Below, in pieces: positions 8,980 to 40,943 of a stretch of 41,626 bases of DNA. Below the pieces are notes generated by a model. The model did not search any database, was not told where the DNA came from, and saw only the letters and a list, made by a program, of their open reading frames with translations. Numbering within the stretch: position 1 is the first letter of the stretch; every line of letters starts with the position of its first letter. The translations under genes were made by a program, and so were the position numbers. The stretch covers positions 1 to 41,626 of the forward strand of contig CALMDO010000168.1 of the NCBI GenBank assembly GCA_937862805.1, written 5' to 3'. The stretch comes from an uncultured Bacteroidota bacterium. Lineage in GTDB: Bacteria; Bacteroidota; Bacteroidia; Bacteroidales; FEN-979.

Positions 8980-9609
8980 TCATCGAATCAGTCCCAACCC
9001 TTCCAAAGCCGAAGGATCCCGCGGTTTATTCAACAAAACCTTGCTGAACAGGACCCTGGCTTCCCTGAATTTGCCCATCTTCAACGCTGTCCAACCATAT
9101 AAAAGCGTGGCATCATAATCAAAGGGATAAAGGTTGACGACTTTTTCAAGGTATTTTTCCGCGCGGGGATAATCTTGTTTGTTGTAAAAAATGGAGCCCA
9201 TCCTGTAATTGGCCACGGTATTCTGAGGGTCGATCTTCAGGATTTCCTGATATTGGTTGATGACCTGTGTCCAGTTGCCCATGGCAGCCGCCGGTAACAC
9301 GTACCCGAACTTGGGTTCGATGGCGTAGGGCTTTAACCGGATGGCTTTCTGGTAATAGAGCGCTGATTCATTGTAAAGACCTGCTTTGAACAATAACCAT
9401 CCGAGGCGTAAATTGATCTCGTAAGCGTTTTCCTGGTACACCTCCTTGAGCGATCGGGCCGCTTTGGCGTACTCACCTTTCGCCTCCTGGGCATAACTCA
9501 ATTCAAAAGCGTTTGCCAGCATCTTGTTGTCGACCTGAGCTTCAGACAGCACTGCGTGAAACAAAAGCGCCATAAGGGTGATTAACCTGATCTTTTTTAT
9601 AGTTTCCAT
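8980..9609 (-). CDS. Periplasmic TPR protein, last gene of the RRE/ATP-grasp operon (209 aa)
   Basis: The signal peptide is METIKKIRLITLMALLFHAVLSEAQ. About five tetratricopeptide repeats follow: AFELSYAQEAKGEYAKAARS, NLRLGWLLFKAGLYNESALY with AIRLKP, WTQVINQYQEILKIDPQN, MGSIFYNKQDYPRAEKYLEK and LYGWTALKMGKFREARVLFS. The chain ends shortly after the last repeat. TPR proteins hold other proteins together. Here the start overlaps the end of the TPR/beta-barrel gene by 13 bases, so the two are probably made together and may form one periplasm/outer-membrane assembly. The stop codon lies inside a short perfect inverted repeat (8974-8992), which lacks a U-tract. Confidence 0.8.
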   Translation of the reverse strand: METIKKIRLITLMALLFHAVLSEAQVDNKMLANAFELSYAQEAKGEYAKAARSLKEVYQENAYEINLRLGWLLFKAGLYNESALYYQKAIRLKPYAIEPKFGYVLPAAAMGNWTQVINQYQEILKIDPQNTVANYRMGSIFYNKQDYPRAEKYLEKVVNLYPFDYDATLLYGWTALKMGKFREARVLFSKVLLNKPRDPSALEGLGLIR

Positions 9610-11114
9610 GTCAATCCTCCTATAAGGGTATTGGCGGAATAGGGATGATCAGCAATCCGTGGTGTAACTGACATTGAACCGCTTTCGGGATCAGTAGTCT
9701 TTTCATACAGCAATTCCTGATATTCTTTCCGCGCATATTGGTAGATAAGCGATAATTGAAGATTTTTTGAAAGAAGAAAGATGAGCTGAGCGTTTAGCCG
9801 ATACTTTATCTTATCACTGTTGTTATAGACCACAGCCCCGTTAAAGATGTTGGCATTGGTGTAATCACCGTAATAAAAAGTTCCTTCGGCCCAGCACCAG
9901 GGAGTGATCCTTCCACCTACCATCTGGCTGAATAAAAGCCGGGTGTCGCGACCCTGGAAAAACCCTGTGACCGCCGTATTTCCGTAAATACTCAGGTTGC
10001 CGGCAGGAAACCAGGCTAAAGAAACACCTGCCTGGAATTGATCTTTCCCGTTAAGGTTCGACCAGCTTCCTGAAAAATCCAGACCGAAAATGGAAAAATC
10101 ATTACCCAGGGTCAGTCCGGTCACATAATTGTAAAAAATTGTATCATTTTGTGTCAGGGTGTAAATCGAGCGGATGAAAGGGAACGTCGTATAGGTATCG
10201 GTCGAGGTAACATACCAGAGGGTATCCGTCACAATCGATGCCTGGTAATGTGCCTGCACCAGCGGCAGCGCAACCCGAAGGAGGTGAAAGGAGGGCTGAA
10301 TCCTGAACCGCCCGGGCAGGACAATTCTTGCTTCCAAAAAAAGTTCATTCTGAAGTGTTTGATACTTAAAGGTAGTATCCGTATGAAGGGTGTCGATCCG
10401 GTAATGGTTGTAATAACCCCACGTACAGTCAGCACGCCGCACCAGGTTATCCGATAACACCGACCAACGAAAATTCCTGGTTTTGGAAAAATCGAGAAAT
10501 GAGTAAGCAGCTTTCAGCGAAGCCCGGTTCCAAAGGTTGAAAGTAAGCGATGCCTGACCGTAAAAACTGTTGCCGTAACGATCGGACTCCGAGTAAACCA
10601 CTCCGGCACGCGCTGTCCCGTGATTCCCTTTCCCGTTTTCGCCCGCGACAAGGGTGCCTCCTGCTTCCAGCCTCGCCTGTTCAATCACCGGAGTTTTCAG
10701 GTTGAGACGCTGTTTCATCGTTTCCGGCATCGCCGGCAAAAGGCTGTAAGCCTCTTGTGGGCGGTTAGAATAGAGATAAGCGAAATAGAGGTACTCAAGC
10801 GCCACCAGATCCCCCTTGTTGAAAGCCAGGGCAGCCGTTAAATAACCCACGGAAGAAAGGTATTGCTGTTTTTCAAAGAAAGCGATACCCATCCTGATCC
10901 TGAGGTAATAATAATCAATGTCATCGCGCAGGGCTTGCTTCCCCACAAGGATCAGGCTGTCCCATTGCTTTTCCAGGTAAAGCCGGTATGTGAGCGAGTC
11001 GATCCGCGAAAAACCTGGTTTTTCACCAGCCTTTAAAGTGACGGGAAACAGCGGCAGAAAAAGAAATACCAGCAGGACGGTGAGTGATGGCTTATACCGG
11101 GAGCTTCGTTTCAT
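9597..11114 (-). CDS. TPR domain plus outer-membrane beta-barrel protein (505 aa)
   Basis: The signal peptide ends around LFPVTLKAGEK. Residues about 38-150 are TPR-like helices (RMGIAFFEKQQYLSSVGYLT and ALEYLYFAYLYSNRPQEAYS). From about 155 to the end the sequence alternates polar and aromatic residues, as transmembrane beta-strands do: GNSFYGQASLTFNLWNRASL, FKYQTLQNELFLEARIVL, DQFQAGVSLAWFPAGNLSIY and KYRLNAQLIFLLSKNLQLSL. The C-terminus (LIGGLTWKL) fits a last barrel strand. I estimate 14-18 strands. Such periplasmic-TPR plus barrel architecture recalls exporters of polysaccharide or conjugates (PelB/BcsC/PgaA-like in principle), though here the barrel is smaller and homology is not claimed. 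It sits 16 bases after the urea-transporter fusion in a six-gene operon. Confidence 0.75.
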   Translation of the reverse strand: MKRSSRYKPSLTVLLVFLFLPLFPVTLKAGEKPGFSRIDSLTYRLYLEKQWDSLILVGKQALRDDIDYYYLRIRMGIAFFEKQQYLSSVGYLTAALAFNKGDLVALEYLYFAYLYSNRPQEAYSLLPAMPETMKQRLNLKTPVIEQARLEAGGTLVAGENGKGNHGTARAGVVYSESDRYGNSFYGQASLTFNLWNRASLKAAYSFLDFSKTRNFRWSVLSDNLVRRADCTWGYYNHYRIDTLHTDTTFKYQTLQNELFLEARIVLPGRFRIQPSFHLLRVALPLVQAHYQASIVTDTLWYVTSTDTYTTFPFIRSIYTLTQNDTIFYNYVTGLTLGNDFSIFGLDFSGSWSNLNGKDQFQAGVSLAWFPAGNLSIYGNTAVTGFFQGRDTRLLFSQMVGGRITPWCWAEGTFYYGDYTNANIFNGAVVYNNSDKIKYRLNAQLIFLLSKNLQLSLIYQYARKEYQELLYEKTTDPESGSMSVTPRIADHPYSANTLIGGLTWKL

Positions 11115-11130
11115 TCAGGGAAGGGTGTTA

Positions 11131-13341
11131 TCATGATTCGATCAATGTTGCTTCAATTGTTTTACCTTCATCGAGTACCCGGAAACTTTCAATGCCCGAT
11201 GTGCCGATCTGCCATTCTGTTTCCAGTCTTTTTGTCACCCGCTTCCCGATCGACAGGGTGGTTTCCGATTTCAAACGGAATCCGGTCTGCATGAGTTCAT
11301 CTTCCAGTTCGAGATAATGTAAACGGAAGGTTGAACGGGTAAAAAGAAAGAAGGGAGCCACCAGATCCTGCAGGAAGATCAGAAGGGGTTTGTTGAAGGT
11401 GTGAACCGGGTAATTATCGGTAACCACAAGGTTGCGGTAATGGCCCAGCAGGACTTTATACGCTCCCAGGAAAAAACGATAAAGCAGGGAGGCGCGATCG
11501 CCTTCGAAGTGGGTGAAATAATGCAGGTCGCCGTCATTGCGAAACCAGGCTTTCGAACGGCTTTTCTGACACCAGATGCAGGTGTTGTTGTAAGCATCGA
11601 CCTGGACCTCCCATGAGACCTCTGCCGGCTCCGCGTTGTCGCACTTTACCTGGTACCGGAGTACCTGCCCCGGAATGAAATGGAAAGCTTTTTGCAGGGT
11701 ACTGTTGTGACGGATATTGGATACCTGCATCCCTTCCACGGGAACCTCGTAAGACCGGAGAGAAAATCGATCTTTTTCATGTAAGATGAAATGACTGACA
11801 GGATATTCAATCGTTTTCGAGCCGATGTGAGGAGTCGGTTGCAATTGGAAATGGAGATGGGGAGCCGGAGACCTGCCTGAATTCCCACAGTTGGCCACAT
11901 GCTGTCCTTTGCTGACCCTTTCTCCGGTTACTACCTTGAAACTCCCTTTTTTCAGGTGTGAAAGTTTAGAGTAAAGCTGATCATTATGCCTGATAATGAG
12001 CGTATTGCCCCAATTGTGCTCAAGGTCCATCTTGCCGATCTGATTGTCGTCGTACTCATCCAGGATCTCTTCTACCCAGCCTGCTTCAGGAGCCAACACA
12101 GGTTTATTGTAGCCATAAAAATCTTCGGGTCTTTCGCCGGAACCTGAAAAAGTGGCATCATCTTCGTCGGTGACTTCAAAATCCCATGCATACTGCCATT
12201 CCCCGGTGTGGGTATAAGCGCCCTGATGCCCCTGGGTCACTTTCCACCTTCCGGAAAAGGGTAAAGCCAACGGTAGAAAAAAGACCTTCCCAAACCGGAT
12301 CTTATAGTTGTTGTGCGAATAAAGGTTTTTTTCAGGAGAGTGCTGCTGGTAACTCACCAGCTCTGGTGTTGTAAGAAATCTTTCCCTGAATTTCAAAGCA
12401 TAGAGAAAGATCAGTACAATGAGGTTAAAAGGCAGAGAAAAAACCGAAAGCTGGAAAAGGGCGAAAACCGTGTAAGAACTTGTTAATAAAATGGAAATCA
12501 ATGGAGTAAGGAGGATTACCCACAGGAAAGACCATCGTGAGGGTATGATAAAATATCCTCCCACTGCAATGGCAGTCAGGATAAAATTGAATCCGATATA
12601 GCCATAACTGAGTTCAGTGATATTGGCTCCGATAAAATGGTAGTAAAACCAGGCAGAAAAAAAACCGGTCAACGAAAGAAGAAAAGCGATCCTGGAGTAA
12701 ATGATCAGCCCGATAGCGACCAGGATACCCCCAAAAAGATGGTACTGAAAAAAGATAGCACCCAACGATCTGAAATAAAGCCGCAGTGATTCGGGCAGCG
12801 GGAGAGTGTTGAACCAGTTGTAAACATCTACCAGCGACTGGCCTCCCCATGCATAGAGTTCATTCATCTGGTAGATTCCTGATTCGTTGATTTGTAGTGA
12901 AGCAAATTGACGGGCTGCCAGGGTTACCAGCCATATACCCAACAGAAAAGGCACACTCAGGTAGGGCAGTCCGTATTTACCGATCACTCCTTCCATGGTG
13001 GCCGTCAAAAACAAAGTCAACAAAGATGCGAAGAAGAGAATGGTAAAAAAGGCCGGACCAGACTGGTACATCACGCCGATGCCCAATCCTGCCAACAAGC
13101 TGTTAAAACCATAATAACCATTGGCAATATTTCTGCGGTTGAAGCCGATCCCAAGGGCAGCAGCGTTCGAGACAAGTACCGCGATCAATCCACTCAACCC
13201 TGTATGAAAATCCAGAAAAGAGACAATGATCAGGATGATCGCGAAGATCTTGCTATTAGAAAAGAAAACCTGGCTGTAGCTGTTCAGGAACCCTCTCAGA
13301 AATGAGGACAACGATGTTTTTTCGGGAATTACAGCAGGCAT
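11131..13341 (-). CDS. Urea-transporter domain fused to an M23 peptidase domain (736 aa)
   Basis: Residues about 15-325 are a multi-TM segment with the signatures of urea transporters (SLC14/Yut family): DFHTGLSGLIAVLVSN, then RRNIANGYYGFNSLLAGLGI, matching the GLYGFN..L.G pattern, and a second-half repeat in LSYGYIGFNFILTAIAVG. Residues about 365-535 form an M23 (lysostaphin-type) metallopeptidase. They include YTHTGEWQYAWDFEV, LIIRHNDQLYSKLSHLKKG, VSKGQHVANCGNSGRS and the zinc/catalytic HLH in APHLHFQLQ. The last ~200 residues are a mainly beta C-terminal domain of unknown role. The fusion would put a peptidoglycan-directed hydrolase on the periplasmic side of a small-amide channel. The gene lies 14 bases after the decarboxylase and 16 before the barrel gene. 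Confidence 0.85.
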   Translation of the reverse strand: MPAVIPEKTSLSSFLRGFLNSYSQVFFSNSKIFAIILIIVSFLDFHTGLSGLIAVLVSNAAALGIGFNRRNIANGYYGFNSLLAGLGIGVMYQSGPAFFTILFFASLLTLFLTATMEGVIGKYGLPYLSVPFLLGIWLVTLAARQFASLQINESGIYQMNELYAWGGQSLVDVYNWFNTLPLPESLRLYFRSLGAIFFQYHLFGGILVAIGLIIYSRIAFLLSLTGFFSAWFYYHFIGANITELSYGYIGFNFILTAIAVGGYFIIPSRWSFLWVILLTPLISILLTSSYTVFALFQLSVFSLPFNLIVLIFLYALKFRERFLTTPELVSYQQHSPEKNLYSHNNYKIRFGKVFFLPLALPFSGRWKVTQGHQGAYTHTGEWQYAWDFEVTDEDDATFSGSGERPEDFYGYNKPVLAPEAGWVEEILDEYDDNQIGKMDLEHNWGNTLIIRHNDQLYSKLSHLKKGSFKVVTGERVSKGQHVANCGNSGRSPAPHLHFQLQPTPHIGSKTIEYPVSHFILHEKDRFSLRSYEVPVEGMQVSNIRHNSTLQKAFHFIPGQVLRYQVKCDNAEPAEVSWEVQVDAYNNTCIWCQKSRSKAWFRNDGDLHYFTHFEGDRASLLYRFFLGAYKVLLGHYRNLVVTDNYPVHTFNKPLLIFLQDLVAPFFLFTRSTFRLHYLELEDELMQTGFRLKSETTLSIGKRVTKRLETEWQIGTSGIESFRVLDEGKTIEATLIES

Positions 13342-13355
13342 GCAGTACAGATTAT

Positions 13356-14702
13356 TTATTTCAGATGTTCGGGGACGCGTTCCATTCCGTTCATGTTATC
13401 GACGGTTTCCTTTTGACGGATCAGGTGTGGTTTTTCATCCATGTCAATCAATAACACGTTGGGACGCAAGGCTATGAACTGCATCCATTGAGTAAGGTTG
13501 TAAGCCCCGGTATTATGGATCACCACGTGGTCACCCCGGTTCAGCAACGGCAGTTCCGCACTTTCACGGATCACATCGATGTTCATACATAAAGGCCCGT
13601 ACACACAGGTCTCCTCCGTGTAATGAGTAAACGATTGGGCAGGGGTAATCTTGTGGTCGTACCAATAAGAGGTAAACAGGAGGTTAACTCCGATATCGAT
13701 GATGGTATTACGCCTGCCGGTACTCGACCGTTTATTGGCAATCACCGACCCCAGCAGAAATCCCGCTTCATCAATCAGTGCGCGACCGGTTTCCAGGATC
13801 AGCAAAGGGAGATTGTCCTTTTTGAAATTACTGTTGAGCAGGGCACTTGAGATGGCTTCTGCAAAATCGTCGAATGTCGGGTTGGTATCAGTCCCCGGAA
13901 GGTAAGCTCCTTTCAGGGTGTTTTTGGAAGGGAAACCTCCCCCGAGGTCGATGTATTTTATTTCATGGTTGTATTTTCGCTCAATTGCCAGGGCCAGGTC
14001 TGCCAGTTTGGTAGCCGCGATGGCATACGCCGACGGTGCCAGCATGAAAGTCCCGATATGACAATGCAAACCGACCAGTTCTGCTTTTCCCGAATGCATG
14101 ATCTTATTGATGACATCCCAGGCCTGGCCGTTCTCGTAATTGAACCCGAACCGGTCCCACATCGGATAAACCCCGGTATCCATGTTGACCCTGACGGCTA
14201 CCCTGGGTTTCTTTCCCAGTACTCCGGCCAGTTCAACAATTGTATAGAATTCGTCCAGGTGGTCAATATGGATCAGCGAATCGTTTTGAATGGCTTTGCT
14301 CAGGTCTTCTTCTTTTTTCTCGGGACCATTGAAGATGATCTTTTTCCCGTTTACTCCCAATGCAATGGCTTTGTCATATTCGAAACCTGAGACCACCTCT
14401 GCCCATGAACCTTCCTGATGAAAGATGCTGCATACGGCATTCAGGTAATTGGTCTTGTACGACCAGGCAAACTGTATCCGGGGGTAACGGGCTTCGAACG
14501 CTTTCCTTGCCTTTTTTATGGTCGAACGGATTGTCTTTTCAGAGATCACGAACAACGGGGATCCGTATTCTTTGATAAGATCCTTCACGCCATTTCCGTC
14601 GATGTGGGTTACTGTCTGAATTTCCGACCGGATTCCGAATTTGTTGGGCATCCCGCCCTCCAGCTTTTTAATTACCGGCCTTTCGTATCTCAACTTGCTC
14701 AT
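13356..14702 (-). CDS. Fold-type III PLP decarboxylase (LysA/ODC-like) with leader-like N-terminus (448 aa)
   Basis: The alanine-racemase-fold barrel is recognisable by the PLP lysine in AWSYKTNYL (Lys about 83), HCHIGTF (213-219), the phosphate-binding GGGFP (254-258) and LETGRA (304-308; EPGR in most LysA). Further marks are the barrel-closing CVYGPLCMNID (active-site Cys about 372) and GAY (about 401). This matches diaminopimelate/arginine/carboxynorspermidine-type decarboxylases, which remove an alpha-carboxylate from basic amino acids. The substrate cannot be fixed; the Thr for Pro in ETGR and Thr for Ser in HIGT are departures from canonical LysA. Residues 1-17 (MSKLRYERPVIKKLEGG) are an extension outside the barrel and resemble a RiPP leader. 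The gene lies in an operon with a PqqD-like protein and an ATP-grasp enzyme, 36 bases after the latter. Confidence 0.85.
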   Translation of the reverse strand: MSKLRYERPVIKKLEGGMPNKFGIRSEIQTVTHIDGNGVKDLIKEYGSPLFVISEKTIRSTIKKARKAFEARYPRIQFAWSYKTNYLNAVCSIFHQEGSWAEVVSGFEYDKAIALGVNGKKIIFNGPEKKEEDLSKAIQNDSLIHIDHLDEFYTIVELAGVLGKKPRVAVRVNMDTGVYPMWDRFGFNYENGQAWDVINKIMHSGKAELVGLHCHIGTFMLAPSAYAIAATKLADLALAIERKYNHEIKYIDLGGGFPSKNTLKGAYLPGTDTNPTFDDFAEAISSALLNSNFKKDNLPLLILETGRALIDEAGFLLGSVIANKRSSTGRRNTIIDIGVNLLFTSYWYDHKITPAQSFTHYTEETCVYGPLCMNIDVIRESAELPLLNRGDHVVIHNTGAYNLTQWMQFIALRPNVLLIDMDEKPHLIRQKETVDNMNGMERVPEHLK

Positions 14703-14738
14703 ATAGATTGCATTGTTTAAAATATCGAATCGATTATT

Positions 14739-15785
14739 TCAAAGTTCTCCGTTCATGCTGATCTGCTCAAACTCCTGACGGTCGACAATCATGTCCCATG
14801 CATACCGGATGAACATTTTGCCGACCTCATAATGATTGAACGGACTGACCTCATTGCCCAGTGCCAGGTTGACCAGGGCTTCCGGAATGTTCTGCCCCAC
14901 CCCGACGGCCAGGTAAATCCATGCGGGTAAACGCGGATTGATTTCTAACAAATAGAGTTTTCCCTCTTTGTCTTTCATCAATTCCAACTCAAAACCACCA
15001 CGCCAACGGGTCATTTTCAGGAATTTCCGGGTCATCTCCAACATCTTTTCATCGGCTATGGAGATACCTCCCCACGCTTTGCCTTTATCAGTAATATATT
15101 GTTTGCGCATGGGAACCGCGGCAATCGTGTTGCCTTTTCCGTCACCCAAACCGGTCACGTTGAACTCCGTTCCATGGATAAACTCCTGAAGGATGATGGG
15201 CAGACCCCATTTGGCGCTGATCTTGTTGAAATGACTCTTTAACTGGTCACCATTGTAAGCGATGGAAGCATCGTAGAATTTTCCCTTGACCATCAACGGA
15301 TAAGAAAACCCGGGATCCAACTGACGGGCGCTGTTCAAATCATGAAAAGCTTTGCTTTTCGGGACATCAATGCCATATTTTTCACCAAAATTGCAGAGAT
15401 TCACCTTGGTACGCTCTTCATACTGGGCTAATGTCGGGAGAAACATATGAATACCCATCTTTTTTAGTTTCTCCTCCAAACGGATAAAGGAATACAACTC
15501 CGCGTCAAAATTGGGTATGATGACATCCAGTTTCTCCTTCCCGTGAATATACATCAAACGGTCAAGCAGGACATCTGTGCCGCCCGAAGGATAAGGAATC
15601 TGGTAAGTTTTGTCAACCAGGTCATGCATGTAAATGCCGGGTTCCAGGGATTCATAAGAGAGCCCGATGATCCTGGTACGAAACGATTCGGCCTCCCGTA
15701 AAGCCCTGATCACCGACACGCCAGGTCCGGGACTGTCAATGGCATTCAGCCCGGTTACTGCAATGGTCAGCTCATTCTTCTTCAT
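14739..15785 (-). CDS. ATP-grasp ligase, CarB/PylC-like (348 aa)
   Basis: An N-terminal pre-ATP-grasp Rossmann segment (TIAVTGLNAIDSPGPGVSVI) leads into the ATP-grasp domain. Conserved parts are KSKAFHDL, YPLMVKGKFYDASIA (ATP-binding Lys), ILQEFIHGTEFNVTGLGDGK (hinge Glu), GGFELELMKDKEGKLYLLE and LEINPRLPAW, with the Mg-binding Glu/Asn. The family joins a carboxylate, through an acyl phosphate, to an amine or thiol; PylC and CarB are relatives by fold. In this operon it is flanked by a PqqD-like protein and an amino-acid decarboxylase, so a likely job is making an amide or peptide bond to an amino acid, amine or protein-bound group. It overlaps the PqqD-like gene by 14 bases, indicating translational coupling. 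It is cytosolic. Confidence 0.85.
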   Translation of the reverse strand: MKKNELTIAVTGLNAIDSPGPGVSVIRALREAESFRTRIIGLSYESLEPGIYMHDLVDKTYQIPYPSGGTDVLLDRLMYIHGKEKLDVIIPNFDAELYSFIRLEEKLKKMGIHMFLPTLAQYEERTKVNLCNFGEKYGIDVPKSKAFHDLNSARQLDPGFSYPLMVKGKFYDASIAYNGDQLKSHFNKISAKWGLPIILQEFIHGTEFNVTGLGDGKGNTIAAVPMRKQYITDKGKAWGGISIADEKMLEMTRKFLKMTRWRGGFELELMKDKEGKLYLLEINPRLPAWIYLAVGVGQNIPEALVNLALGNEVSPFNHYEVGKMFIRYAWDMIVDRQEFEQISMNGEL

Positions 15786-16026
15786 GGCGCTCTAAAAGAT
15801 GGTGATGTGCAAGGAGATCAATGAAATCATGATAATCACGTTCAATGGTGATCTTATCAGCAGTGTATCTTTCGATCAGTGCCGCGCAGATTTCCTCCTG
15901 TCCCTTTGCCTCCCGGATCATTCCAAGTACCTCGATTCCGATGGGGTTCACCGAGAAAGATTCTCCCGTAACGGGATTGAATAAAAGTCCCGACTCACTG
16001 ACAGCAATATTCTTTTTTAATTTCAT
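15772..16026 (-). CDS. PqqD-like RiPP recognition element protein (84 aa)
   Basis: This small protein has the PqqD/RRE layout: an N-terminal beta hairpin (KKNIAVSESGLLFNPVTGES) and then the signature FSVNPIGIEVLGMIREAKG. Helices follow (EEICAALIERYTADKITIER and DYHDFIDLLAHHHLLER). The pattern of an N/G-type turn, then an L/I-rich helix, an EI...L..Y helix and a final FI..L...LL helix is standard for PqqD-family proteins. They bind leader peptides of substrates and present them to a partner enzyme. Here the partner would be the ATP-grasp ligase, whose gene starts inside the 3' end of this one. It is the first gene of a six-gene minus-strand operon. No radical-SAM enzyme or obvious short precursor gene is adjacent. 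Confidence 0.8.
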   Translation of the reverse strand: MKLKKNIAVSESGLLFNPVTGESFSVNPIGIEVLGMIREAKGQEEICAALIERYTADKITIERDYHDFIDLLAHHHLLERHEEE

Positions 16027-16186: not shown

Positions 16187-17446
16187 TCAGATCAACTCGT
16201 GCCGGTAGGAATCCTGACGGATAAAAATGAAGAGTAGCAGGGTGAAGGCCCACAACGATGATCCTCCGTAGCTGATAAAGGGCAACGGGATGCCGATTAC
16301 CGGTAAAAGTCCTAAGGTCATCCCGATATTGATGGCAAAATGGAAGAAGAGAATGGAAGCCACCCCGTACCCATAGTAACGTGCAAAGGGAGAGCGCATC
16401 TTTTCAGCGTTCTGGATAATCCTGATAAACAATGCCAGGTAAAGTACAACTACGATCGTGGAACCAACAAATCCCCGCTCTTCTCCGATGGTACAAAAGA
16501 TAAAATCGGTGCTTTGTTCCGGAACAAAATTGTATTTCGTCTGGGTTCCCTGGAGAAAACCTTTTCCGAAAAACCTGCCGGACCCGATAGCGATGAGCGA
16601 CTGGTTCACATTATATCCTGCGCCTTTCGGATCGATTTGCTGGCCGAGAAGCACCTGGATCCTGTCCCTTTGATGTTTTTCAAGGATTTGGTTTACTCCG
16701 TAATCGATAGAGAAGATAAAAGCGGTACCAGCCAGAAAAAGGACGATGACTGTCAGGATTATTTTCAGCCTTTTTTTGATAAAAAACAGGGCCCCCATAG
16801 CAACGAGGAGCAACCCGGCCGTAAGGATCAACTTATTGACCAACAGGGCCAGGATGGCGAGTACGGGCAGGATGATCAATGCCAGAGGAACATACCCCGG
16901 CAATCCGGCCCGGTACAACACAATGATCAGAGCAACAAATACAATGGCAGAACCGGTATCGTGTTGGAGAAATACGATCAGTGCCGGGATCAGTGTAATC
17001 AACAGGGCAATGACAAGGTTTTCCGGTTTTCGGACATCTACTTCGAAAGTACTGAGAAATTTGGCCAGGGCCAGACAGGTGGCCATTTTCGCGAATTCTG
17101 CCGGCTGGATTCCAAAACCTCCGATGGCAAACCATCCTTTTGAACCACTAATCTCCCTTCCTGAAAAAATGACCAGGATGATAAAAAACAGGAAAAAACC
17201 ATAAATGAAATAGGCAAACTGAGAAAAAAATTTCGGATCGATGATCAAAGTACCCAGTCCTAAAAGGAGCGCAGCAATGATAAAACCCATCTGCTTACCG
17301 TACTTTTGCGTCAGGTCGATGATCTGGTAATGGTTTTCATCATACACAGCGGCATAGATGTTGACCCAGCCGGTGATCACCAACGCCAGATAAATTCCGA
17401 CCAACACCCAGTCAATCTTGTGAAATATTCCCCTGTGTTCTCTCAT
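16187..17446 (-). CDS. rodA: RodA, SEDS peptidoglycan glycosyltransferase (419 aa)
   Basis: This polytopic membrane protein of the FtsW/RodA/SpoVE family polymerises lipid II into glycan strands during cell elongation. Visible hallmarks are GSKGWFAIGGFGIQPAEFAK (the conserved W...G....QPSE-type loop), FLQHDTGSAIVFV (the essential Asp of SEDS proteins), FIFCTIGEERGFVGS and GLLPVIGIPLPFISYGGSS near the C-terminus. About ten TM helices and a length near 420 fit RodA. The ATG at 17446 is preferred over a TTG two codons upstream. It overlaps the 3' end of the PBP2 gene by 35 bases, the classic mrdA-rodA pairing. The two proteins act as one enzyme complex. Confidence 0.95.
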   Translation of the reverse strand: MREHRGIFHKIDWVLVGIYLALVITGWVNIYAAVYDENHYQIIDLTQKYGKQMGFIIAALLLGLGTLIIDPKFFSQFAYFIYGFFLFFIILVIFSGREISGSKGWFAIGGFGIQPAEFAKMATCLALAKFLSTFEVDVRKPENLVIALLITLIPALIVFLQHDTGSAIVFVALIIVLYRAGLPGYVPLALIILPVLAILALLVNKLILTAGLLLVAMGALFFIKKRLKIILTVIVLFLAGTAFIFSIDYGVNQILEKHQRDRIQVLLGQQIDPKGAGYNVNQSLIAIGSGRFFGKGFLQGTQTKYNFVPEQSTDFIFCTIGEERGFVGSTIVVVLYLALFIRIIQNAEKMRSPFARYYGYGVASILFFHFAINIGMTLGLLPVIGIPLPFISYGGSSLWAFTLLLFIFIRQDSYRHELI

Positions 17447-19277
17447 TTTCAAAAATTTTCCCGTTGATCAGGTTCCCGTTGATCATTCTCTCTTCGAGGT
17501 CTTTACGCGTAGTCTTCCGTTTAAGGTATTGTTCGATCATCAGACTGGCGATGGGAGCAGCCCAGGTTGAACCGAATCCGGCGTTTTCGCACACTACAGA
17601 AATCGCGATTTTTGGATTTTCGCGGGGTGCAAATGCAATAAAGATCGAGTGGTTTTTCCCGTGCGGGTTTTGTGCTGTTCCGGTTTTACCGCAAACCGTG
17701 ATGCTGTCGATGGCAGCTCCGGTAGCGGTGCCTGCCGTGACAACCCGCGCCATACCTTCGATTACCGTGGTAAAGTAAGAGGGATCGATGTTAACCGAAA
17801 GGCGTTCATTGAACGCCGGGTTCAGGCTGTCGCTTCGTCCGATGGCCCTGACAATGTGAGGGATAAAATACCATCCCTTGTTGGCAATAAGGGCTGCCAG
17901 GTTGGCTAACTGGACGGGTGTGAGTCCGATCTCTCCCTGACCTATACCCAGGGAGATGATGGTCATTGAACGCCAACGGTTCTTTCCGTGGTACTTGTCA
18001 TAATAGGAAGGAGTAGGAATGTTCCCGTTCAATTCATTGGGCAGATCGATACCCAGTTTCTTCCCGAAGCCCAGCGCGAGGACTTGTTTCCGCCAGTTTT
18101 CATAAGCAGCACGGGTGCTGCCATAGACGCGGTTATCGATGATGGTTTTAAAGACACGGCAAAAATAGGTATTGCATGATAGCTGGATAGCCATCGTCAA
18201 ATCGAGCGGGGAGGGGTGGGCGTGGCAGGCAACCATTTTGCCGTTACCAATTGAAAAACCACCCGGGCAGCCATAGCGGGTGTCGGGAGTCAGTACACCT
18301 TCCTTCTGCCCGATCAGCGCATCCACCAGTTTGAAAGTCGATCCCGGTGGATAACTGGCCATCAGCGCCCTGTTAAATAAGGGATTGTATACGGTATCCT
18401 GAAGCAAAAGGGTATAATTCTTTTTACGGATGTTCCCGACCAGCAAATTGGGGTCGTACGAAGGGCTGGAGACAATGCAGAGAATTTCACCCGTAGAAGG
18501 TTCAATGGCTACGATGCTCCCTTTCTTGTTGGTCATCAACCGTTCACCATAAACCTGCAGGTCTGCGTCGAGCGAAGAATAGAGATCGATTCCGGCTACC
18601 GAAGCGGTATCATATTTCCCCTCCCTGAAACTCCCTTTATCGCGGTTCAGCACATCAAAAACCCTGATTTTCATCCCTTTCTTTCCCCTGAGAACCTCCT
18701 CATAAGATTTTTCTATCCCGCTGATCCCAACGTAGTCGCCCGACCTGTAATAGGGATTTTTGGCGATAAGATCGGGACTGGCTTCACCAATATACCCCAG
18801 GGTATGGGCCGCGACCGAATAAGTGTATTTGCGCAGCGTACGCAATTGAACGAAAAAACCCGGAAAACGAAAAAGTTTTTCTTCGAGATAACCATAATTT
18901 TCGCGCGTGATTTGTGCTTCGAAAATGGTCGGAAGATAGGGAGAATAGTTTCGGGCTTTTTCCAGACGGCGCCGGAACTCCCCCCGGTCGATGCCGATCA
19001 GTTCACAAAGGGCAGCGGTATCCGGCTTTTTGACCTGCCGGGGGATTACCATCAAGTCGTAGGCAGCCTCATTGTAGACCAAGAGTTTACCGTTGCGGTC
19101 AAAGACGAGCCCCCGGGCAGGATATTGGGTCATGTACCGGAGTACATTATTGTTGGCTGAGAGGATGTACTTGTCAACCAGGATCTGTACATAGAAAAGC
19201 CTGATCACGAAAATGATGCCGACTATCACAATGAACCCGATAATGATGTATTTCCGGTTGGCCAATGTGCGTTCCAT
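17412..19277 (-). CDS. mrdA: Penicillin-binding protein 2, transpeptidase (621 aa)
   Basis: One N-terminal TM helix (YIIIGFIVIVGIIFVIRLFY) is followed by the PBP dimerisation domain (YPARGLVFDRNGKLLVYNEA) and a class B transpeptidase domain. The catalytic motifs are SxxK in YPPGSTFKLVDAL, SxN in MAIQLSCNTYF and KTG in VCGKTGTAQNPHGKNHS. The sequence order and length match PBP2 (MrdA), which crosslinks new peptidoglycan during elongation and works with RodA, encoded immediately downstream. The start is ATG at 19277, seven bases after the stop of a lipoprotein gene, so the three are probably one transcript. In many Bacteroidota mreB/C/D precede this pair; they are not here. Confidence 0.95.
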   Translation of the reverse strand: MERTLANRKYIIIGFIVIVGIIFVIRLFYVQILVDKYILSANNNVLRYMTQYPARGLVFDRNGKLLVYNEAAYDLMVIPRQVKKPDTAALCELIGIDRGEFRRRLEKARNYSPYLPTIFEAQITRENYGYLEEKLFRFPGFFVQLRTLRKYTYSVAAHTLGYIGEASPDLIAKNPYYRSGDYVGISGIEKSYEEVLRGKKGMKIRVFDVLNRDKGSFREGKYDTASVAGIDLYSSLDADLQVYGERLMTNKKGSIVAIEPSTGEILCIVSSPSYDPNLLVGNIRKKNYTLLLQDTVYNPLFNRALMASYPPGSTFKLVDALIGQKEGVLTPDTRYGCPGGFSIGNGKMVACHAHPSPLDLTMAIQLSCNTYFCRVFKTIIDNRVYGSTRAAYENWRKQVLALGFGKKLGIDLPNELNGNIPTPSYYDKYHGKNRWRSMTIISLGIGQGEIGLTPVQLANLAALIANKGWYFIPHIVRAIGRSDSLNPAFNERLSVNIDPSYFTTVIEGMARVVTAGTATGAAIDSITVCGKTGTAQNPHGKNHSIFIAFAPRENPKIAISVVCENAGFGSTWAAPIASLMIEQYLKRKTTRKDLEERMINGNLINGKIFENERTQGNISQD

Positions 19278-38993: not shown

Positions 38994-40943
38994 GTGGAAA
39001 AGAACCTGAAAAAGCGCTTCATAACCCTGACCCGGTACCTTCTCGCGGCCCTGATCCTGCTGTTATTGTTGATTCTCTTTTTCAGGAACAGCATCACCGA
39101 TGCTTATATCCAAAGGAAAATAGACCGTTTCAATGTTTTGACAGGCGCTCGACTGAAAATTGAAAAGGTGCGGATCAAAGGACTGGCCTCTGTGGAAGTG
39201 ACCGGGATCACATTGGCCCCGCCTGAAGGTGATACCCTCTGTAAAATTGATACAGCCTATGCCTCCATCGGCATCCTGAAATTGCTCAGCGGCCACCTTG
39301 CCATCCACGATGTGCATCTCATAAACTCCACTTTCAACCTCATCAGGAAGGATTCAACGACCAACTACCGGTTTCTGCTGAAAAAAAATAAGGAGACAGG
39401 GGATACCATTTCCTCGACGGTTAATTATGCGGCGGCGGCCGACCGGTTGACAGGTCTTGTCTTTGATAAAATTCCCCGAAGCCTCAGCATCAGTAATTTG
39501 CGGTTGGTCCACCGCGACGGCGACCACCAAACCACTTACTCTCTTAAATCCATGGAGATCAGAAAGCATTTTTTTCACGCCCCCATGCAGGTTGAAGAGG
39601 AAGGGGAAACTGCTACGTGGATTGTTGCCGGCCGGATAGACAATGCCCGGCGGATGGTATCCTTCAGGATTTATTCCAATGATACGGCCTCGATCCGGAT
39701 CCCCTTTGCCGGTTACCGGTGGAACGCCGGCATCCGCTTCGATACCCTCTCTTTCAGTATTAATGAAGAAAGAACAACCGAAGCTGCCACCCGTTTTTCA
39801 GGCTATTTTGCTGTAAAAGGATTGTCGCTGACCCATGAAAAAATCGCTGCCGTCCCGGTGACTTTCGATCATTTAGCAATTGATTACCGGGTCACTATCG
39901 GAGCGGATTACCTGGAACTCGACAGCGCATCAGTCGTCACTTTCAACCGCCTGGTTTTTCATCCTTATGCCCGGTACCGGCCTCATCCTTCAAAACAAAT
40001 TCTTTTTTCCTTCCATAAAGGACTCTTTCCGGCTGAAGACCTTTTCACAAGCCTTCCGGCAGGTCTTTTTGCCAACCTCGACGGAATACGGGTACAAGGA
40101 TCGCTTTCATGGTACCTCAACTTTGGCGTCGATCTGGCGCAACCCGATTCATTGCTTTTTGAGACTTCCCTCGACCGCCACCGGTTTTCATTGATCGGTT
40201 ATGGAGCTTCAGATCTGGGCCGGATGAATGGTTCCTTTACCTACACGGCTTACGAACACGACCTGCCGGTACGAACCTTTGTCGTTGGTCCGGAGAATCC
40301 AAATTTCAGGCCTCTTCACAGGATTGCCCATTACCTCCAGGTGGCTGTGATGACGGCTGAGGATGGCGGATTTTACCAGCACCGCGGTTTTCTTCCGGAT
40401 GCTTTCCGCGAATCGATGATCACCGACATCAAGGAACGCCGTTTTGCACGGGGCGGAAGCACCATCAGCATGCAACTGGTAAAAAATGTCTTTTTGAACC
40501 GGAACAAAACCATTGCCCGCAAGTTGGAAGAGGCACTCATCGTATGGTTAATCGAAAACCAGGGAATCACTTCAAAAGACCGGATGTTCGAGGTCTATCT
40601 GAACATCATCGAGTGGGGCCCGCTGGTTTACGGAGCCAATGAGGCAGCCCGTTTCTATTTCAACAAAGATGCCTCCCGGCTGACCCTCAGTGAAGCCCTC
40701 TTCATGGCTTCCATCATTCCCCGTCCCAAGGGATTTCGCTATGCTTTCGATGAAACAGGCCACCTGAAAGCATCCAATGCCGAATTTTTCACTTTGTGCA
40801 AGGCCAAAATGGTTGCCAAAGGATGGATCACTCCCGGTGAAGCCGAAAAAGCCTTGCCGGATATCGAACTTAAAGGAGCTGCAAAGGAACTGTTGAAAAC
40901 CCATGATTCGGTGATAACCGGTGGTGCGTCAGATCCTGAATGA
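38994..40943 (+). CDS. AsmA-like domain plus GT51 peptidoglycan transglycosylase (649 aa)
   Basis: One TM helix (YLLAALILLLLLILFFRNSI) is followed by a long beta-rich periplasmic region (about 40-430) that looks like the AsmA/DUF748 lipid-transfer-type fold (KIEKVRIKGLASVEVTGITL and DVHLINSTFNLIRKDS). The C-terminal 190 residues are a GT51 domain. It has the catalytic Glu in MTAEDGGFYQHRGF, then FARGGSTISMQLVKNVFLNR, the second Glu in RKLEEALIVWLIE and VYLNIIEWGPLVYGANEAAR. No transpeptidase is present, so it should polymerise glycan strands only (MtgA-like). The start codon is GTG. Confidence 0.85.
   Translation: MEKNLKKRFITLTRYLLAALILLLLLILFFRNSITDAYIQRKIDRFNVLTGARLKIEKVRIKGLASVEVTGITLAPPEGDTLCKIDTAYASIGILKLLSGHLAIHDVHLINSTFNLIRKDSTTNYRFLLKKNKETGDTISSTVNYAAAADRLTGLVFDKIPRSLSISNLRLVHRDGDHQTTYSLKSMEIRKHFFHAPMQVEEEGETATWIVAGRIDNARRMVSFRIYSNDTASIRIPFAGYRWNAGIRFDTLSFSINEERTTEAATRFSGYFAVKGLSLTHEKIAAVPVTFDHLAIDYRVTIGADYLELDSASVVTFNRLVFHPYARYRPHPSKQILFSFHKGLFPAEDLFTSLPAGLFANLDGIRVQGSLSWYLNFGVDLAQPDSLLFETSLDRHRFSLIGYGASDLGRMNGSFTYTAYEHDLPVRTFVVGPENPNFRPLHRIAHYLQVAVMTAEDGGFYQHRGFLPDAFRESMITDIKERRFARGGSTISMQLVKNVFLNRNKTIARKLEEALIVWLIENQGITSKDRMFEVYLNIIEWGPLVYGANEAARFYFNKDASRLTLSEALFMASIIPRPKGFRYAFDETGHLKASNAEFFTLCKAKMVAKGWITPGEAEKALPDIELKGAAKELLKTHDSVITGGASDPE

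Follow-up and report, generated by a model that had tools for sequence, protein, structure and literature searches.

A six-gene operon was analyzed in an uncultured Bacteroidota bacterium (Bacteroidales; FEN-979; GenBank assembly GCA_937862805.1). The window, that is, the whole stretch of DNA studied here, comprises the 41,626 nucleotides of contig CALMDO010000168.1. At positions 8980-16026 it carries six minus-strand open reading frames (ORFs), which encode, in gene order, a PqqD-like protein, an ATP-grasp ligase, a decarboxylase (DEC), a fusion of urea transporter (UT) and M23 peptidase domains, a barrel-like protein and a tetratricopeptide repeat (TPR) protein. The successive gaps between them are -14, 36, 14, 16 and -13 bases. 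An earlier note, prepared from the DNA letters, had described these ORFs and spacings, and all were confirmed at the same places.

The first protein (P0001, 84 amino acids [aa], 15772..16026) was assigned as a discrete RRE, or RiPP recognition element (RiPP, ribosomally synthesized and post-translationally modified peptide), with a match to PF05402 (1.6e-11). The second (P0002, 348 aa, 14739..15785) is a CPS/PylC-like ATP-grasp ligase (ATPgrasp_Ter, 2.4e-11), and the third, DEC (P0003, 448 aa, 13356..14702), is a fold-III pyridoxal phosphate (PLP) decarboxylase of the FslC/LysA/BtrK clade, with an Orn_Arg_deC_N match (7.8e-29) and a C-terminal sheet domain. They are followed by the UT-M23 protein (P0004, 736 aa, 11131..13341; UT, 1.2e-56; Peptidase_M23, 6.8e-15). 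P0005 (505 aa, 9597..11114) has no family match in Pfam or NCBIfam and was read by eye as an outer-membrane beta-barrel-like protein with an N-terminal TPR-like region. The last protein, P0006 (209 aa, 8980..9609), has a signal-peptide-like start and TPR repeats (TPR_2, 1.7e-19). All of these genes and the features within them lie on the minus strand. The domain matches agree with the earlier assignment of the first three proteins as the cytosolic part of a system, and its channel and outer-membrane-type parts are also supported. No radical-SAM domain was detected among the six proteins by domain search, as the note had pointed out.

Conservation and distribution of the operon

Gene neighborhoods were compared in 60 loci, comprising the window and 59 stretches fetched with flanks around an ATP-grasp match; loci L031-L033 and the paralogous locus L116 were left out of the counts. 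The PqqD, ATP-grasp and DEC genes are adjacent on one strand in 56 of the 60 loci, the PqqD gene overlapping or abutting the ATP-grasp gene in most of them, and UT-M23 comes next within 400 bases in 51. The TPR protein is present in 53 loci and homologs of the window-type barrel in 37. An alternative ORF with a median length of ~279 aa, barrel-like by eye, is common to 17 loci and stands directly behind the place of the TPR gene in 11 of the 14 rows printed. When ORFs of at least 70 aa were clustered and judged by eye, this alternative ORF was the only candidate seen for a seventh gene conserved within the operon.

The distribution of these genes across genomes points in the same direction. 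An ATP-grasp match was found in 39 of 61 genomes of relatives (the window's own included), 37 of the matches being strong and two weak (G037 and G039). In a draw of 395 genomes from the phylum, again with the window's own, 35 had an ATP-grasp match with an E-value of at most 1e-20. In G429, however, the match is a paralog of 26% identity, at whose locus (L116) the other operon genes are absent within the stretch fetched, which leaves 34 genomes. P0004 matched 54 of the 395 genomes, 34 of them over both domains and 20 over the M23 part only. The genomes with both domains, including G065 in which the UT and M23 parts are separate ORFs, are exactly the 34 with the ATP-grasp ortholog. In a separate draw from the order, DEC was found at E 1e-90 or better in 153 of 393 genomes, with a patchy distribution. 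According to the earlier note, rare co-occurrence would speak against one conserved system; the ATP-grasp ligase and UT-M23 co-occur in 34/34 genomes, so this refutation fails. We conclude that the six genes form a real and conserved system, beyond chance.

Departures from the intact order occur at contig ends (L072 and L074), with split ORFs (L082 and L083), with inserted genes or longer gaps (L073, L075, L113 and L114) and in an inverted arrangement (L079). Inserted genes of ~2-6 kb interrupt the operon in three loci, separating DEC from UT-M23 in L073 and L075 and preceding the barrel in L083; by eye, the inserts are an aminotransferase-like gene with another gene, an ATPase-like pair and, before the barrel of L083, long ORFs. 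In L079, DEC is split into two ORFs (309 aa and 117 aa). The UT-M23 gene of this locus is encoded on the opposite strand, 3 kb away from the PqqD gene and beyond two genes that look by eye like purQ and relA, a flank also seen in L033. The ATP-grasp gene is broken into two ORFs in L082 (genome G016) and in G477, by either decay or assembly error.

The PqqD-like protein and the N-terminal tail of the decarboxylase

By sequence comparison, P0001 is an RRE of the lasso type. Among proteins of solved structure, only the lasso RRE TbiB1 matches it strongly in sequence (1e-9), it matches the lasso_PqqD_Strm model (1.4e-7, below the model cut-off), and the PqqD family profile reaches TbiB1, TfuB1 (FusB1), PbaB1, the PqqD of pyrroloquinoline quinone (PQQ) biosynthesis and LppB. 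In LppB, the kink that the leader makes at its Pro is fixed by N33, D70 forms a hydrogen bond with the leader Tyr, and F74 lines a pocket and touches the Pro; hardly any complex forms with the N33A change, and the complex is weaker with D70A (PMC13381572). In a profile alignment, these leader-contacting residues fall on Asn27 (codon at 15946..15948), Asp64 (15835..15837) and Phe68 of the window's RRE, a mapping that assumes a chain numbering shifted by 18, with which all named letters fit. Asn27 is invariant in a 22-row alignment and is Asn in 111 of 113 replication loci (described below), with a gap in the other two. The C-terminus of the PqqD protein was considered as a carrier and rejected because it is not conserved.

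DEC itself matched the NCBIfam models FslC (4.2e-72) and lysA (2.3e-65), both below cut-off, and PDB entry 7kh2 (5.9e-59). Residues K83, H215, G254-G256, C372 and Y401, which we take to be active-site residues, are invariant in 30 rows. In front of this enzyme lies a leader-like tail (residues 1-33, 14604..14702), for which 179 N-termini, the AlphaFold model and the starts of homolog alignments provide the evidence. The N-termini comprise 59 from the first set and 120 new ones, the truncated L031 being left out. A [YF]xxPx[ILV] motif is present at lasso-leader spacing in 179/179. Position 6 is occupied by Tyr in 140 sequences and by Phe in 39, position 7 by Glu in 173, and position 11 by Ile, Leu or Val. 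No variation was seen at Pro9 or at Lys21; Gly23 is present in 177 sequences, the other two having Ala at this position. In the window, the motif reads YERP (14676..14687), a putative RRE docking site of the YxxP type, and the codons of Lys21 and Gly23 are located at 14640..14642 and 14634..14636, respectively.

A discrete PqqD-family RRE together with a YxxPx[LIV] leader is also what characterizes the lasso pairs TbiB1/TbiA and FusB1/FusA, as well as LppB/LppA. Lasso leaders have YxxPxL at -17 to -12 and Thr at -2, and their core starts with Gly at +1 (PMC10368454). The spacing from Tyr to Gly in the DEC tail is the same as that from Tyr(-17) to Gly1, which places Lys21, a candidate acceptor or arm, at -2 and Gly23 at +1. 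Unlike in lasso systems, the leader is here the N-terminus of a 448-aa decarboxylase, the residue at -2 is an invariant Lys instead of Thr, and the operon has no precursor, cyclase or lasso-type leader peptidase. No B2 peptidase or lasso cyclase was found among the six proteins; the rest of the genome was not searched for them.

The tail is an N-terminal extension of DEC orthologs that is missing from related enzymes. AlphaFold gave pLDDT values (predicted local distance difference test) below 50 for tail residues 1-3 and 7-25 of the window's DEC, the enzyme being otherwise well predicted, and the tail is thus predicted to be disordered in this protein. FslC and the best-matching diaminopimelate (DAP) decarboxylases of known structure align to DEC from residue 33; unlike in DEC, the region that FslC matches does not include the YxxP tail. 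The earliest alignment start among 27 solved sequences is residue 16 (3vab), and the tail as a PDB query gave no match. LysA-type homologs (E 1e-30 or better) in 148 phylum genomes align from residue 30 or later only, and 16 operon DEC rows in the same comparison align from residues 1-5. A plasmid search with P0003 yielded six distant decarboxylases, three of which align from residue 12 or 16 (BLAST), and the two starts that were read are without YxxP. A plasmid of Nitratidesulfovibrio vulgaris (L363, 3655-6563, near prsK) resembles the operon in having adjacent genes for an ATP-grasp protein and a LysA-like decarboxylase. It differs in that no PqqD is found among the eight genes of an incomplete table and that the decarboxylase start has no YxxP. 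This plasmid pair adjoins acyltransferases and a gene annotated prsK.

Searches for the tail elsewhere returned mainly DEC itself. A profile of the tail, made with 20 rows that were largely taken from the operon genomes searched, had DEC as its best match in 49/49 operon genomes (G184 twice); there were only three other matches (E 0.016, 0.018 and 0.097). A hidden small precursor ORF was considered by a six-frame scan for the lasso-spaced motif in 63 loci and the window, and was rejected: 58 of 72 matches are DEC tails, and the remaining 14 are scattered, several containing stops, where one mononucleotide shuffle gave three. Hence neither the tail profile nor the motif scan found a separate precursor gene with leader and core, and a different leader would escape both. 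The earlier note had also seen no separate precursor gene, which holds, but a leader is present, as the N-terminal tail of DEC. The tail therefore seems to replace the missing precursor peptide, with a leader of the sort that usually labels peptide antibiotics for processing sitting on the enzyme itself, which would explain the absence of a separate peptide gene.

The lasso register, including the Gly at core position 1, might also indicate a RiPP whose precursor is fused to an enzyme. Here the tail, or a peptide cut before Gly23 in the manner of lasso precursors, would be modified by the ATP-grasp ligase, cut by M23 and exported. M23 is a peptidase family whose residues are intact in this protein, and fused precursor-enzyme pairs exist, for example, the borosins. 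On the other hand, only ~10 residues separate Gly23 from the catalytic domain, a urea-type channel is narrow, and the lasso cyclase and B2 peptidase domains are missing from the six proteins. We regard such a fused RiPP as unlikely, and a free RiPP-like peptide as the product is unsupported.

Docking of the tail by the RRE was investigated by covariation in a discovery set of 58 loci and a replication set of 113 new loci with both parts. The replication loci came from the list of 153 genomes of the order draw, part of which was fetched. They derive from 120 loci in 119 unused genomes (G496 twice), which were picked by position before any residues were seen. Seven of the 120 have no RRE in the fetched stretch; four of these reach contig ends (L281, L302, L315 and L340), and in the other three (L276, L309 and L318) the gene order is broken or longer. 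For these three, RRE and ATP-grasp genes were found by a search of each genome (the ATP-grasp gene being the split one in G477), and the best RRE match was used, weaker PqqD-like matches in G456 and G477 being ignored.

In the discovery loci, position 64 had the highest mutual information among RRE columns, and its combinations with tail residue 6 fell into non-overlapping classes, Asp-Tyr (50), Tyr-Phe (7) and His-Phe (1). The replication loci gave Asp-Tyr (66), Asn-Tyr (15), His-Tyr (1), Tyr-Phe (16), Ser-Phe (12) and Ala-Phe (3), and the three loci with broken or longer gene order were all Asp-Tyr. Taken together, Asp or Asn goes with Tyr in 134/134 cases, and Tyr, Ser or Ala with Phe in 38/38. 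In our reading, the Asn and Ser/Ala classes, which were first seen in the replication set, follow the expected chemistry, in that an acceptor would be kept for the Tyr hydroxyl. G496 has two DEC copies (L253 and L304) with 74% and 64% identity to P0003, and its second locus carries an Asn64-Tyr6 pair.

Shared ancestry was taken into account with a tree of ATP-grasp sequences covering 169 of 171 labelled loci. On this tree, tail residue 6 changes 11 times by parsimony, compared with 33-37 times in ten shuffles. A dependent model for RRE 64 and tail 6 was favored over an independent one with a likelihood ratio (LR) of 84 for 4 parameters when His was treated as ambiguous, and of 73.9 when His was counted as non-acceptor; among 60 random pairs, the 95th percentile was 12.3 and the maximum 17.5. 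Columns of the RRE, the ATP-grasp ligase and the first 95 DEC residues were then scanned by corrected mutual information. Of 42,946 pairs of columns from different proteins, 9,207 include a tail column; each of the 10 highest-ranking pairs is one of these, with RRE 64 and tail 6 in first place. An acidic residue at RRE 53 accompanies Lys/Arg at tail 4 (LR 49.8), and, alone among the tested pairs of ATP-grasp and tail, ATP-grasp 269 with tail 14 also stands out (LR 29.9). Based on these coupled substitutions, it is almost certain that the RRE docks the decarboxylase tail.

The UT-M23 protein and the surrounding genes

Structural matches to the UT-M23 model (pLDDT 90) assigned the first ~350 residues to the urea-transporter fold and residues ~350 to 530 to M23/LytM. 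The channel domain (12394..13293) matches PF03253 (1.2e-56, above cut-off) and has the full fold of dvUT and UT-B (Z ~37 to UT-B, UT-A2 and dvUT). It differs from urea transporters in its fusion to M23 and one more domain, in its identity of 19-23% in structural alignments, and in its score of 119 against an NCBIfam Yut cut-off of 274.6. In the alignment to dvUT, Glu is replaced by Ala in the GEVMFQ stretch of the second repeat. The M23 domain (11788..12288; Peptidase_M23, Z ~14 to LytM domains) has His378, Asp387, His462, His495 and His497 invariant in 32 sequences. A C-terminal beta-rich domain, recognized from the secondary structure of the model (residues 519-736, 11134..11787), has no family in Pfam or NCBIfam and is barely covered by structural matches. 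We considered and rejected its designation as a new fold, for which poor coverage in the structural matches listed is no evidence.

When helices were taken from the model, loops on the M23 side contained a mean of 9.0 Lys/Arg residues and those on the other side 1.9, and the M23 side exceeded the other in 57/57 sequences. Urea transporters have both ends in the cytosol. For these two reasons, the M23 domain very likely faces the cytosol, and action on peptidoglycan is therefore improbable. The domain shares its fold and its zinc and catalytic residues with M23 peptidoglycan hydrolases, and it departs from them, by prediction only, in not being periplasmic; its earlier description as a peptidoglycan hydrolase is hence not sustained. 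In L083, where a genuine split or a frameshift could account for the separate M23 ORF, no signal peptide was recognized by eye at the start of this ORF, and the UT and M23 ORFs overlap by 4 bases. P0005 is barrel-like as far as can be read from its sequence, and both P0005 and P0006 begin with signal-peptide-like segments (by eye).

Directly upstream of the operon and on the same strand, the window has genes for rodA/ftsW and a penicillin-binding protein (16187-19277), with 160 bases between rodA and the PqqD gene. Such genes might point to a cell-wall system, in which a periplasmic M23 domain would remodel peptidoglycan and the DAP-decarboxylase-like enzyme and the ligase would make or modify wall amino acids; M23 peptidases and DAP decarboxylase are wall-related families. 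However, the charge distribution and the M23 ORF of L083 are at odds with a periplasmic M23 domain, and the 12 loci with the rodA neighbor (window included) all come from the window's own family. A role in the cell wall is thus very unlikely. Elsewhere in the window, positions 38994-40943 encode a 649-aa protein with a transglycosylase domain. This protein matches DUF748 with a score under the cut-off, and a transpeptidase match was absent at E 1e-5. Rfam had no match in the window at the gathering threshold, and promoter and terminator scans gave 11 and 10 sites, respectively, compared with 10.3 and 9.0 in shuffles.

Proposed pathway and relation to known systems

Two known pathways offer a precedent for the paired enzymes. 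FslC of the rhizoferrin pathway (FslA/FslC or FigA/FigC) is the closest named decarboxylase family and structure to DEC, and BtrK of the butirosin pathway (BtrJ/BtrI/BtrK) is a homolog of DEC (E 1.5e-24) and likewise paired with an ATP-grasp protein, the loading enzyme BtrJ. FslC/FigC decarboxylates N-citrylornithine, an acylated amino acid, whereas the substrate of BtrK is glutamate attached to the carrier protein BtrI (PMC7857480). In rhizoferrin synthesis, the ligase makes the acylated amino acid, which is then decarboxylated, and the same order is proposed here. Following the logic of FslC/FigC and BtrK, the ATP-grasp ligase would form an amide with an amino acid and DEC would remove its carboxylate. 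By analogy with BtrJ/BtrK and FslA/FslC, ligation and decarboxylation probably act in series.

The operon also differs from both pathways. The rhizoferrin ligase is an NRPS-independent siderophore (NIS) synthetase, whereas the operon has an ATP-grasp ligase and no NIS domain in its six proteins, and DEC scores 243 bits against the FslC cut-off of 500. Unlike in butirosin synthesis, no acyl carrier protein was seen in the operon, the candidate arm being a lysine on DEC itself; the six genes have no seventh between them, by eye there was no such protein among ORFs of at least 70 aa conserved in at least five loci, and a genome-wide search was not made.

A reasonable model is a biosynthesis-and-export operon. 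The RRE is probably coupled to the ATP-grasp ligase, and the tail, held by the RRE, would bring DEC onto the ligase, so that the product is ligated and then decarboxylated. At the channel mouth, on the side of the urea-channel-like protein that faces the cytosol, the M23 domain might then cut the product free, and the freed product might leave through this channel and the outer-membrane barrel/TPR pair. We assign a probability of roughly 0.6 to this model as a whole.

Because Lys21 is invariant in a tail predicted to be disordered, it is a natural candidate for an acceptor. It might be presented to the ATP-grasp active site and carry the amino acid through both ligation and decarboxylation, a role as covalent arm that we propose only tentatively. 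The full scheme, in which the ligase loads an amino acid on the RRE-held Lys21 side chain, decarboxylation takes place on the tether, M23 releases the product and export follows, is slightly more doubtful still. In this scheme, M23 would cut the amide in the way that M23 endopeptidases cleave D-Ala-(side-chain amine) bonds in the cell wall. If such a swinging arm exists, the system would be a protein-tethered assembly line derived from a repurposed RiPP leader.

Alternatively, the tail may serve for docking only, as a non-covalent tether by which the RRE joins DEC and the ATP-grasp ligase, and a free, perhaps unstable, ligation product is handed over. The Lys21-Phe-Gly segment would then be a second binding element, and M23 would have a different target. 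Since docking only is contained in the model given above as a more restricted version, the odds of the two overlap; we give it somewhat less than an even chance, and it is at least as likely as the steps of Lys21 as acceptor and M23 as releasing enzyme. The contact of RRE and tail is well supported by covariation, FslC-type enzymes act on free acylated amino acids, and no carrier-protein gene was seen among the ORFs conserved around the operon, all of which fit simple docking. It gives no reason for the constancy of Lys21, which is not replaced by Arg or any other residue in 179 tails although the region is predicted to be disordered, and it leaves the M23 domain without a role.

The direction of transport could also be the reverse, with the operon importing a small molecule through the channel for use instead of producing one for export. 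Passage through urea-type channels is passive and possible in either direction. Nevertheless, the combination of an RRE docking tag with enzymes for amide formation and decarboxylation is typical of biosynthesis, and no further enzyme is conserved in the operon. We therefore consider uptake rather improbable, and export the likelier direction.

Several observations weigh against the proposed biosynthesis-and-export model. A cytosolic M23 domain is unusual, its side is deduced from charges and from the topology of urea transporters, and its part as the releasing enzyme is argued by analogy. At RRE position 64, His occurs once with Phe and once with Tyr. For the contact between ATP-grasp ligase and tail, 286/19 has an LR of 12.8, just above the 95th percentile of the null, and 265/15 one of 4.4; 229/19 and 124/19 are among the top pairs by mutual information alone. 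Middle LR values need caution, given that the tested pairs were chosen as top ranks and the null pairs at random. Contact with tail residues 15 and 19 was accordingly rejected as proof, since its high mutual information comes with these low tree-corrected values. Lys21 never varies, and covariation therefore cannot test it. Furthermore, the operon is not always intact: in G456 and G487, DEC is found on a contig other than that of PqqD-ATP-grasp, and L079 has the inverted UT-M23 gene.

The arrangement shares one piece each with lasso/RiPP, butirosin and rhizoferrin systems and belongs to none of them. No published description of the combination was found among open-licence PubMed Central (PMC) papers, in line with the earlier note, which knew of no such pathway.

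The known function of RREs is to grip the precursor peptides of RiPP pathways. In this operon, an enzyme appears to be held by this grip instead, and the covariation of the contact pair repeats in new genomes. If this is true, genome mining that demands a precursor gene would miss such pathways, and "orphan" PqqD genes would gain a testable partner, namely a YxxP motif on the N-termini of neighboring enzymes. An unusual exporter composed of channel and peptidase would also be predicted, together with a new small molecule.

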